Assembly (NCBI GenBank): GCA_964017185.1
Contig: OZ024883.1
Location: 1,674,001 to 1,738,000, forward strand
Origin: Rugalucina vietnamica
Lineage: Eukaryota > Mollusca > Bivalvia > Lucinida > Lucinidae
Length of the DNA stretch: 64,000 nt
Direction: 5' to 3'
This document shows positions 31,037 through 55,200 of this stretch, one piece after another. The notes beneath the pieces were generated by a model. That model was not told where the DNA came from, searched no databases, and saw only the letters and a list, made by a program, of their open reading frames with translations. The first letter of the stretch is position 1. Each line of letters starts with the position of its first letter. The position numbers and the translations under genes were made by a program.

Positions 31037-34000
31037 AAGAAGTACAACAATATCCATGAGGCCGTAGCCAGTGGTGATGTTACGGCTGTAGAGTCTATGG
31101 TGAAGAATGGAGCCAGTATCAATGAGGTTGATGACAGAGATAAGTTCACACCTCTACACACGGCCTGTAACAGTGGGGCATTGGAGGTGGGTGATGGTTT
31201 ACATTACAACATGTTGGAAACTATATTTTTATGTTGTGGTAACAATGCACCATGAAATTCTTGAATCAGTCACAGTGCAGATAAAGTTAGACCTTTCCAA
31301 TGTAAAACACCTTATTTATCCTTTAAAATTGTTGTGTGCATGAAGTTGAACATTTACTCCCTATTACATGTATATGTACTGGTATTTGTGATTGCCAGCC
31401 TTTTTGTAGCTCATGAAGTATTAAAACACATATGTACATCCAGTGACAGATAAAAACATTTCTTGCACACCAGATAGAAAAATCCTCTGTTTTAACCCGT
31501 GTGAGAAATTCTTATCTCACCCTCGTTATCTCACCCAGGTCGCACTATGCGTTCAAGTGTTCTTTTTTAACATTGGTTGTATAGGACGTCACGTAATTTT
31601 GTCGCTAAGCGCACACGTCACAATGACGTCAAAACGTTTTAAATCAAAATGGCGGACGCCGTGATTTTAGCATTTTTCTAGGTAAATAGTATAAAAAACA
31701 ATCTTCGCTGCATTAAGGTGAGCAAGAAAAAGAATCCATCATTCGTGTCAGGTATGGATAGACAAATCTGTCCCTCGGGTCACAATTTGGCATCACTCGG
31801 CGAGCCTCGTGATGCCAAAATGTGACCCTCGGGACAGATTTGTCTATCCATACCTGACACTCATGTAAGATTCTTATAATTCCAAACATGAGATTTTCAG
31901 AGATCCCTTTATCGATGTGTCATAAATGAAGTCATTTGAATGTCATCTTGAAATATTTTCTTCTTCATTCATATTTGAGCCGCATCGTGAGAAAACCGGA
32001 TTTTTGCCTAGGCGAAAACAAAGGCACAGATCAGCTTCGCGGTAACCGCGAAGCTGATCAGCGCCTTTGTTTTCGCTACTTTGATAGTATAATTCCTCTT
32101 CTACTCATAGCCAAAATTTCAAGTATCTAGCCTGCTCCTGTGACTGTATAGACTGATTTGTGTCGCACCTGGTCGGAAACCCCGAAGACCGGTTTTCTCA
32201 CGATGCGGCTCATTTCAGTGTCTTCACTGGTTGCTGTGGCATGGAGCTGATGCCAATGTGACAACTACCAAGGGTTGGACCCCAGCTCATATAGCGGCTA
32301 TCAGAGGGCAAGATGCTTGTCTACAGGTATGTCACAACTGCAACTGACCGGAAAATTTTTGTGAGATTTTCAAATCATGATTTTGAATTACGTTTATTAG
32401 CAAGTTCTTCAATTCACAAGCATGAACTCATGCAGTCTATAAAGCGTATCATAGGTCTTTATAAGTGAAAACTGTAAATTTGCAAGGCATCAAACTACAG
32501 AAGAACACCATTTGCAATAAATGCCTCTCAGTTTCTGAAAGTAAAAATATGTTTTCATTAAACATCAACATGGGCAAAACTGTTTTTCGTCATAATAACT
32601 TTCTCAAATTATGATTCATAGGCACATTATGCAATAATTTAGAGTACAGAATTATTTAAAAATTCCATAATTTACCAATAACTATGATTATAAGAACTTT
32701 CAACTTTCTTCTAGGCATTAGCCAACAATGGTATCAACCTGAGTGCTAAAGACCACAGAGGCAGTTCCCCCGGACACCTAGCAGCTGCCCACGGCAACTC
32801 ATTTACTCTTAATACCATACTCAGAGCTGGAACTGTGAGTATTACAATCATTGTAGTAGATTTTATGAGAGTTTTCAACCTTAGGGCCTAGGCTAGTTTG
32901 AATCTGTGCATGCCGACTGTCCTTTTTGTTCCTACAAAGTGGTCTTAGAGTGTTTGGCTTGTGAAGATGCCAACATAGATGTCATAGATAAAGAGCATAA
33001 AGTAGGAGTTAAGCTTCCAAATTATGGATCTCTTCTTTAATCAGAACTTTGCTATGTATCCATAACTGTTTTGAGCATATCCGTTTGGTCCATGACATGT
33101 TTAATAGCATCAAGTTTACTGTTTGAGCCACGACGCGAGAAAACCAACAATTTGGGGTTCCAACCAGGTTTGACATAAACCAGGCTGTACAGTCACAGCA
33201 TAAAGCTAGAAGCTTGAAACTTTGAATATAAGTAGAAGAGGAATAGTACTATCCGTGTAGTGAAAACAAAGGCGTTGATCGGCTTTGCAGTTACTGCACA
33301 GCTGATCTGTGTCTTTGTTTTCGCATATGCAAAGTGTTGGTTTTCTCATTAGTAGACTCATTTTATAGTGCATAGTGTTAAGTGAAGTATATTGATCTTG
33401 GAAGTGGCTAGTGTTTCAGTAGTATGAAAAGGGAGCATGTTTGCCTCAGACAATGTGATAGAGTGGTAGAATACAAATTGTAAGGCCCTAGGTTCCAACC
33501 CAACTGGGTTGCCATGTTGTGTCTTAAGCCAGACACATTAAGTCATTTTCTGAATTTTGTTCCGAAGCAATGGCTTAATCAGGACATAATTGAAAAATTG
33601 TTCAGTGGATAGATAAACCCCAATACAAACAAACAAAATAGTAAACAAACAGTTAGATTGATTATTACACTAATATTTTACCAGGGTTTTGTGAATTCTG
33701 AAGGTCAAAAGGTATGTGTATTACACAGGGTTTTATGATTTTGTTGTTGTGAAATGTTTGGTGCATCAGTGAAGTGAGCAAATGCTTGGTGAATGAATCA
33801 ATATCATCTGTACCCTTAAAAAGTTTCACACATGGCATTGTATTTGCTCCAGGCATGCAAGAAATTACATAGTTATACAGGATTTCTTCTCTTGTGTTGC
33901 AAGGGAAATATCTGACTTGATTGGATAAAGCTGGTCAGCTTGGTCAGATCCAGGAAGTTTATAAGGGGTGTTCAAACCAATCAAGGGGGATCATTTCTAC

Positions 34001-52200: not shown

Positions 52201-55200
52201 CATAAATATATGTTTGGACAAGTTTGAACACGCCAAAATGAAACTGCAGCCTTTTAAATTTTTGTCAAGCAAAAAAGACAAAATTATTATGGGAGTCAAT
52301 GGGAGTGAAGGTGTTCTCAGAATCTGTGCTGCATATAACTAGTGCCATTTCAAACTTCATTATTTTAAGACCTTTAGGTCACTTATAGATTAGCGACTAA
52401 TATCTTACATTTCATCTCACCCCACTGTTACCATGGCAACCACAAACAGCAGATTGATGCTTTAGATATTTTATGTGGTGTTTTAAAATTGCTTACCAAC
52501 AAACTCCATTTGCATCAAGAATAATATAAATATTTTAAGATTGCTTGGAAATGTTTTCCCTACATGATGGTATGTAATATGATAGAAATTATATTATGTT
52601 GACAAAAAATGACTAAAGATCTTGCATTTTTTCACTTTGGGAACTCACTTATGGCCTCTGAGTGTAATTAATCAATGCAGACAGTTTACATGTATTAAGA
52701 CTTCAACTGAATTTTAACAAAATGATGTACTGCAAAAAGATCTGTTGCAGGGCATTGTATTTACATAAAAGTGGTAAATGTTTTTGTTGATGAAATATTT
52801 GACATCTACAATCAAAATTGTTTACATGTCCCCGGGGGTGGGGGAAAAAGAGCAGTGTTTTTACCTCCAATATGTCCCCACAGTGCGGGGGTTATAGCAG
52901 GGCTTTATTTTGTAAAAAGTTGCTGTCCCCGCCCATCCCCGTAGGTGGGGAGGCAGTGGTTACAAATGACTGGTGAATTAAGCTTTGGTCATTTATCGTT
53001 TTATATGGACGTTGGAGTTTAAATGACATATAGATTGGCGTGAGTTTTAATGATTCATGATTCGAACAATGACGTCACACTTTGATTTTCAGAGCGACCT
53101 GCTTGCTACAGTGCTCTTGACCCATAGGATACAGCACTGTATACGAAGTAAAAAAAATGTTACAAATTTTCACATTTTTTAGACTTTTTAGAGAGACGTA
53201 GTTGGCGCATATGTGTGACTCACCTTGGCGACCTGTCTCCATAGAGCTGTACCTATACCCCTACCCCTATATTCTGGCTTCACATACAGGTCTTCTAGGT
53301 ACAGAGAACTGCCCTCCCAAGTTGAGTAGGAGAAAAAGTACAAGGCGTATCCCACCACTGTCAGCCTGTCTGAGATAGAAGATATGAGCCTGTGCGTGAG
53401 AAAACCAACAATCTGCCTATGCGAAAACAAAGACGCAGATCAGCTTCGCGGTAACCGCGAAGCTGATCAGCGCCTTTGTTTTCGCTACACAGATAGTACA
53501 GTCCCTCTTCTTCTTAAATCCAAACTTTCAAGCCTCTAGCCATCTTCTGTGCTTGTACAGCCCGGTTTGTGTCGGACCTGGTCAGAAAAACAAATTGTTG
53601 GTTTTCTCACGCACAGGCTCATATGTTGTACAACGTACTGTAGTGATTTGATGTACGTAGTATCACTGCCAGCCTGTTTTCTTATAACATGACACAAAAC
53701 CTTACACCCCCTTTCACTTGAGCTTGCCGTTTCAGCATTTAGGTCAGTCAAGTTTCTTCACTCGAGTTTGCTGTTTCAGCATTTAAGTCAATCAAGTTTT
53801 TGTATAAATCAGGTAACTTTTTATATTCTATTTTCAGTGTCCCAGGTGCCAGGTATCCTTAACTTCTCGTTGTGTAAGTACCTAATTGTCAATTTAGTGT
53901 TCTCTCCCACCCTGTTGTTTGGATTTTGTTTTCTTATTGCACCATATTGCTTACTTTTACCTTTATTTAATCTCTAGTAGGTTTTCCCACATACAGATTC
54001 ATACAATTACCTGACAAGGGTGTCTCTGCTACTAAACATCTGAACAGTTTGTCTTCGCCAAAGCCGTCACGACGCAAAACTAAACAAAAAGAATCATCAC
54101 GATAGATTATAAACAATGTGGTGTATGCTTTAGCATGACGTACACACAGTCAACTCGACAATGGAGAATCATCGACAATGGCGAATCACTCGTAAAGATA
54201 TTGCAGAATTTCTTGAATCTTAGACAAAATATTATTAAATTTATTATATAACTCAGTCATTTACTTTCATCTATGCCTTGATGTTTGGTAAAAGAATGGA
54301 GTCAAAATTCCACCGGACAATAAAATAAGGGTTGCTGAAATGCTTGACCCCTTAACTAAGATGTCTAGTCTATTGTTCCACAGAAAGTACCGTTCAGATA
54401 AAATGTGTTTCTTAACCCGTTTCTAAGCGTTTTATTATAACCATTTTTGCATTACTTTAATGCCTATTATCCCTTGTTATACATTATGCATGTTTTTGAT
54501 AAAAGTTTTGACATTGAAGATAGATATAAGCGTGGAAAGGTGTACATGCAAATTCGACAATAGCGAATCATAGTTTGTGTGGTAAAAAGAATGTGCACAA
54601 ATTACTGATAATCTACCTTTGAAACGCTCGCCCATGAACAATTGGGTTTGGTCAATGACGTAAGTAATATTGGTGCAAGTCGTGGTTTAACCCTCTTGAT
54701 TTAAGGCTTACATCGATTCATTAAAGCAATAAGACATGCTTAAATTGGTAAAATTGACATTTCTGATGGGGAATTTGTTGTTGACAGTGAACGTAAAGCA
54801 CAAAAGCAAATTAACACAATATTATCGAACACCATTTAGTTTCGCATGATGATGGCACCATTTGTGTGCAAAAATAGCATTCTAAAATGGTTTCTTTTGG
54901 GCTGTAGACTATTTGATTCGCCATTGTCGAGTTTGGTTCGCCATTGTCTAATGCGGGAGGTATCATATCAACAGAGTTATCTCCCATTAGGAAATTGAAT
55001 GAATTAAAATTATTATTTTCTTGTTTGGCTGAGATATGTTAGATGTTCTTAGTACCAAATAGAAAAACATTCTCATGGTCGTACTTAAAATAATAACGTT
55101 TGACCTCTTAGTGGTTCGCCATTGTCGAGTCCACTGTATCATACACGCTGCTTTTTTCAACTAGACTGGCAATGCAAGTTAAATAAACATGAAAATGATT

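Follow-up and report, generated by a model that had tools for sequence, protein, structure and literature searches.

An abundant miniature inverted-repeat transposable element of Rugalucina vietnamica lies in excess beside splice-site motifs

The stretch of the Rugalucina vietnamica (Bivalvia; Lucinidae) genome analyzed here, hereafter the window, comprises 64,000 nucleotides (C15:1674001-1738000 of the 1.09-Gb assembly GCA_964017185.1; positions below count from its first letter). It carries an ankyrin-repeat gene, presumably ANKRD42-like, and two further genes, SSAT-A and SSAT-B. In our models, built from sequence, all internal junctions of the three genes are GT-AG and the joined reading frames are open. 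Copies of a miniature inverted-repeat transposable element (MITE) are scattered within and between these genes, several of them immediately beside exons (Table 1). Beyond the window, this MITE family was found in excess beside splice-site motifs across the whole genome.

The consensus of the element is 235 bp long, and its self-matches consist of terminal inverted repeats (TIRs) pairing positions 1-30 with 206-235 and of a 77-bp palindrome lying within, at positions 36-112. Scanning the 64 kb with nhmmer, using a profile built from six window copies, recovered seven near-full-length copies and two fragments. The initial annotation had counted eight copies of about 234 bp; this was not quite right, one of its five exon-side copies being a 72-nt fragment. 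The ends it had reported, GAGCC and GGCTC, hold for the full copies other than b and d, which end in GACTC, and h, which starts with GTGCC. The 4-bp target site duplications (TSDs) that it had read as ATTT, AATT and ATAT are perfect, on direct reading, in copies a, c and f, as well as in h, and are imperfect in b, d and e.

Outside the window the family is numerous. Within 88 loci taken around copies (259 kb) we found 212 copies or fragments, and the number of ends matching the TIR pattern implied 74,000-96,000 genome-wide, depending on which of three background estimates was used. Counting those of the window, 149 full copies had flanking sequence, and 99 of them showed a perfect 4-bp TSD, compared with 27 under mismatched pairing; among these 99 the sequences were ATAT (30), AAAT (24), ATTT (24), AATT (8) and others (13). 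When the best 40 candidates of each genome search were scored, the other full-length matches to copy f were 98% identical and one partial match 95%, the best other matches to copy a were 97-99% identical, and matches to copy b were 91-93% identical. In its short length, long TIRs, TSDs and high copy number the element is a MITE, a very abundant non-autonomous DNA transposon with 4-bp AWWT target duplications. Sola2 transposons likewise have 4-bp AT-rich TSDs of the form AWWT, also given as ATAT, AAAT and ATTT (PMC3627910), and the TSD spectrum of the MITE agrees with this; the likeness lies in the TSDs, and the TIRs differ in length, at 30 bp in the MITE and 12-13 and 21 bp in the Sola2 elements described there (PMC3627910). 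No transposase or autonomous Sola2 partner was seen, and no search for one was made.

Six of the copies are intronic, and five of these lie within 30 nt of an exon; the five distances given in the initial annotation proved exact, and the exons concerned belong to the in-frame GT-AG models. Under uniform placement across the 20 introns of the window, 6.9% of copies would be expected so close (binomial p = 9e-6), and when each copy's own intron length is taken into account the probability is 0.006 (Fisher). The 30-nt threshold was set post hoc and the pattern came from a single window, so a test outside it was needed. The post hoc threshold and a within-intron probability of only 0.006 speak for a lucky window singled out by its reader. 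Chance as the whole explanation is refuted by the independent genome-wide counts described below, and we give it almost no credence.

We counted splice-site motifs beside MITE ends throughout the genome. A TTTNCAG lying 4-34 nt outward of a MITE end reads as the acceptor of the intron containing the MITE. Its reverse complement CTGNAAA in the same place served as the control, being expected at equal frequency by strand symmetry and unusable for that intron. For donors, ACTTAC was the working orientation and GTAAGT the control. We found 2487 acceptor motifs and 1597 controls, an excess of 890 (z = 13.9), and 1056 donor motifs and 695 controls (z = 8.6). Farther out, at 104-134 nt, the acceptor excess was absent from the whole genome (1830 motifs and 1949 controls), giving a near-to-far ratio of ratios of 1.66 (95% interval 1.52-1.81). 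Insertion spread uniformly over introns should also favour the working orientation to some degree, and at 104-134 nt the counts begin to include reverse acceptors located behind short exons. A model of uniform intronic insertion predicted that about 65% of the near excess, or about +580 (a rough figure from 23 exon lengths of the window), would persist at 104-134 nt, whereas we observed -119; the slight far deficit would fit exons with their donor end beside the MITE. There is thus a genome-wide excess of this MITE beside splice-site motifs, which bears out the non-random exon proximity suspected in the initial annotation.

Base asymmetry of the flanks does not account for these counts, as the outward flanks of 350 MITE ends were symmetrical in composition (T/A 0.995, C/G 1.008; 442 TTT and 453 AAA). 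Among the first 20 acceptor matches listed, 8 scored at least 15 as an exon starting exactly at the motif, compared with 0 of the first 20 controls having an exon of such a score starting anywhere in the corresponding stretch (Fisher p = 0.003; rank test p = 0.011). This is near the 36% expected from 890/2487; the threshold of 15 was chosen after the values had been seen, one of the 8 exons (in L102) is just 42 nt long, and the listings for both test and control repeated a few loci. Seven of the eight peptides were long enough for a Pfam search: FERM_C exceeded its cut-off, Thiolase_N and GCIP_C fell short of theirs with small E-values, and four peptides matched no family.

A second test used predicted exons in 85 sampled loci that do not repeat the window and that contain 206 MITEs. 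At an exon score of at least 16, 18 of the 206 MITEs lay within 40 nt of a predicted exon, compared with 6.9 expected. The excess persisted at scores of at least 18 (12 vs 4.7), 20 (9 vs 3.2) and 22 (6 vs 2.2), and no excess was seen in these loci at 101-300 nt from predicted exons at any score threshold. At 30 nt or less the counts were 12 vs 5.4 at score 16 (p = 0.01) and 7 vs 3.6 at score 18 (p = 0.06). The target motif offers little explanation: AWWT was only 1.1-1.4-fold denser at 4-44 nt from 61 exons than further out, and with placement confined to AWWT sites and weighted by local GC there were still 17 of 188 MITEs within 36 nt, compared with 7.3 expected (score 16), and 9 compared with 3.7 (score 20). 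AWWT density and local GC are therefore too weak to cause the exon proximity. By side, 8 of the exon-adjacent MITEs were at acceptors and 10 at donors. A Pfam scan of 10 of the 16 exons near MITEs returned six matches above cut-offs (SRCR twice, TPR_1, Y_phosphatase, calpain and TPP_enzyme_C), two weak ones and none for two exons. In two cases a single predicted exon had MITEs on both sides, at 18 and 31 nt (L002 1294-1469, SRCR) and at 34 and 26 nt (L087 1265-1465, TPP enzyme).

On balance we consider it probable that the MITE has a preference for inserting into intronic DNA no more than about 40 nt from an exon, on both acceptor and donor sides, owing to the chromatin that flanks exons, and that splicing tolerates these insertions. 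The enrichment extends to acceptor and donor sides alike and to intact MITE ends (see below), so insertion into exon-flanking chromatin is favoured. A preference that acts on both sides of exons in different kinds of genes, that reaches about 40 nt and that is not matched by motif or composition is most simply read as insertion into the linker DNA flanking exons. The preference would act at the insertion step: exons would carry positioned nucleosomes, leaving the adjoining linker DNA open to the transposase. Of the three explanations offered in the initial annotation (targeting, survival of insertions that preserve splicing, and co-option), targeting is thus the best supported, although not through a pyrimidine tract in the TIRs, given the enrichment on the donor side and a target motif no more specific than AWWT.

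Several points weigh against preferential insertion beside exons. The reading depends on the presumed arrangement of exonic nucleosomes and open linkers. The far control at 104-134 nt covers the acceptor motif only, and any preference for genes would produce part of the near motif excess. The two acceptor-type motifs were unequal (212 vs 174) in 277 kb of sampled DNA outside MITEs. The exon model is an ab initio one, trained and first tried on the three genes of the window, and the excess at 30 nt or less was weaker at the higher scores (5 vs 2.5 at score 20, p = 0.10; 3 vs 1.7 at score 22, p = 0.24). Finally, in the sampled loci 3 of the 61 high-scoring (youngest) copies were near predicted exons, compared with 15 of the 145 others, the loci having been picked by copies f and a.

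This last point leans towards retention, in which insertion would be uniform and exon-side copies would last longer, the deletions that remove them also hitting the splice site, so that old mid-intron copies would vanish faster. Against retention, intact 24-base TIR ends of the type found in copy f showed an excess at least as large as the rest: 179 acceptor motifs vs 92 controls (ratio 1.95; p = 1.4e-7 alone), compared with 2308 vs 1505 for the remaining ends by subtraction (ratio 1.53). The difference between the two has z = 1.8; the f-type excess is not the smaller. TIR types counted by hand in the first 42 Mb of C1 pointed the same way, with 21 vs 8 for two young types and 79 vs 57 for the others. 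In addition, insertions adjacent to splice sites should themselves be purged. We regard retention as unlikely. In this tentative preference for insertion over retention, the genome-wide count of intact ends is given more weight than the age split in the loci. Survival of insertions that preserve splicing, as proposed in the initial annotation, can prevent depletion beside exons but cannot by itself create an excess.

Alternatively, splicing factors, exon nucleosomes or histone marks could serve as a tether for the transposase or a partner of it. Such active targeting rests on the same facts as insertion into accessible exon-flanking DNA, including the insufficiency of AWWT and composition. Passive accessibility is simpler and the tethering protein is purely hypothetical, and we consider a tether improbable. 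A more far-reaching scheme, in which the family is guided to exon borders by such a tether (exon nucleosomes, marks or splicing factors) and its termini have been shaped to preserve splicing through an outward branch point and a self-looping hairpin, seems to us a speculative one with a small chance of being right.

Preferential insertion beside exons leaves the tolerance of these copies at acceptors to be explained: copy a leaves only 7 nt of host intron before ankyrin exon 2. The RNA of the consensus is predicted to fold into a single hairpin of -119 kcal/mol. When transcribed, the MITE may thus form a long hairpin that loops itself out, allowing the insertion to be tolerated, and the hairpin could draw the old upstream sequence near. 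The TIRs may also contribute. The initial annotation saw in their outward ends a ready-made pyrimidine-rich tract suited to an acceptor; the tract is a poor one, and each TIR instead reads outward into a branch-point-like CTCAC that, near a host AG, could help tolerance. The branch-point consensus is yTnAy. The CTCAC of copy a lies 19 nt from the AG, and that of copy f 28 nt.

These two spacings, together with the acceptor excess of 890, could also be read as co-option, with positive selection keeping splice-side copies whose TIR supplies a branch point, a pyrimidine tract or a structure for exon definition. Against this, donors are enriched as well, both in the motif counts and among the sampled loci, the exons near MITEs belong to different kinds of genes, and the acceptors of copies a, c and f already look adequate when the empty site is rejoined. 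Co-option in splicing, also raised in the initial annotation, finds no support in this analysis, and we think it very improbable.

Some introners are MITE-like, with 4-bp TSDs and TIRs; they are gene-rich and are predicted to insert into nucleosome linkers, a bias mentioned in passing for many DNA transposons (PMC9860276). Given this resemblance, the MITE might be introner-like, its insertion into an exon creating an intron made of the MITE itself. Introners are whole new introns (PMC9860276), whereas the MITE sits within longer ones: the window introns that contain it still measure 202-2031 nt without it, and none of the 206 MITEs in the sampled loci was flanked on either side alike by predicted exons at 60 nt or less. 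SSAT-A and SSAT-B moreover share the position of intron 3 and carry their MITEs at different ends of it. The element thus does not constitute an intron, and an introner-like origin is hardly credible.

Human and mouse introns carry fewer SINE, LINE, LTR and DNA elements close to exons than expected, most likely through purifying selection, and for DNA elements the depleted zone extends 50 bp in human and 100 bp in mouse (PMC3088655). The MITE of R. vietnamica, in contrast, is over-represented in just such a zone. A parallel comes from the lucinid Lucina pectinata, in which a 210-bp MITE-like repeat (consensus 1) has 30-bp imperfect TIRs and a 77-bp palindrome (PMC4732748). In anatomy, the sole basis of this comparison, its TIR and palindrome lengths are those of our element; it differs in total length (210 vs 235 bp) and in that no TSD was found there (PMC4732748). 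Repeat segments lie nearer the 3' end of introns 1a, 2 and 3 of HbI and the 5' end of introns 2 and 3 of HbII (PMC4732748), perhaps a hint of a similar exon-side position, although these positions concern all repeat segments and not consensus 1 alone. Among the papers listed on MITEs at splice sites, titles and abstract openings contained no report of such an enrichment, which is not proof of its absence. An exon-near excess in so abundant a family allows two questions to be tested, whether exon chromatin is read by transposases and by what means a mobile element stays invisible to splicing, and the family amounts to a natural library of splice-site-adjacent insertions.

Table 1 Positions of the genes, MITE copies and other repeats in the window.
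Feature	Position	Strand	TSD	Remarks
Ankyrin-repeat gene	31032..42535	+		13 modelled exons (an earlier first exon may exist); Pfam ankyrin repeats
SSAT-A	43981..47958	-		5 coding exons; Pfam GNAT
SSAT-B	49233..55775	-		5 coding exons; best PDB match Diamine acetyltransferase 2
MITE copy h	30470..30691	-	ATAT	within AT microsatellite that precedes modelled ankyrin exon 1
MITE copy a	31977..32211	+	ATTT	acceptor side: 7 nt before ankyrin exon 2
MITE copy b	33125..33359	-	GTTT/ATTT	ankyrin intron 3; nearest exon 290 nt away
MITE 5' fragment g	40401..40472	+		72 nt; donor side: 16 nt beyond ankyrin exon 10
MITE copy c	42106..42339	+	AATT	acceptor side: 28 nt before ankyrin exon 13
MITE fragment i	43053..43102	-		downstream of ankyrin stop codon
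MITE copy d	43277..43507	+	ATTT/ATAT	between ankyrin and SSAT-A coding regions
MITE copy e	45224..45457	+	ATAT/ATTA	donor side: 26 nt beyond SSAT-A exon 3; gene on -
MITE copy f	53386..53620	+	ATAT	acceptor side: 16 nt before SSAT-B exon 4; gene on -
Degenerate MITE traces	614-692, 4985-5073, 9357-9445			in tandem array of 4372-bp unit
Tandem array, 4372-bp unit	1-13100
Tandem array, 16-bp period	15495-15771
Perfect inverted repeat	26335-29171			1418-nt arms, 1-nt spacer
Inverted repeat pieces	50291-51278 / 54146-55140			SSAT-B introns around exons 3 and 4
Degenerate duplicate of ankyrin exon 4	34948-35065			in neighbouring intron; seen by eye
Degenerate duplicate of ankyrin exon 11	40866-40962			in neighbouring intron; seen by eye

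The window contains several further repeats. The array at its start consists of about three tandem copies of its unit, 99% alike where compared, each with a degenerate MITE trace; the three traces were weak with the six-copy profile and clearer with a wider profile built from 107 genome copies. The arms of the perfect inverted repeat are 100% complementary, and the structure is either a palindrome of very recent origin or an artefact of the assembly. The inverted repeat pieces in SSAT-B, about 1 kb in all and 88-95% complementary, probably represent a different mobile element, present as two opposed copies. A histogram of 118 gaps between MITEs, judged by eye, showed no clear periodicity. A search for the P450 family, meant for a test starting from exons, returned 93 matches, many of the best being open over nearly the full profile and apparently intronless; these were not used.

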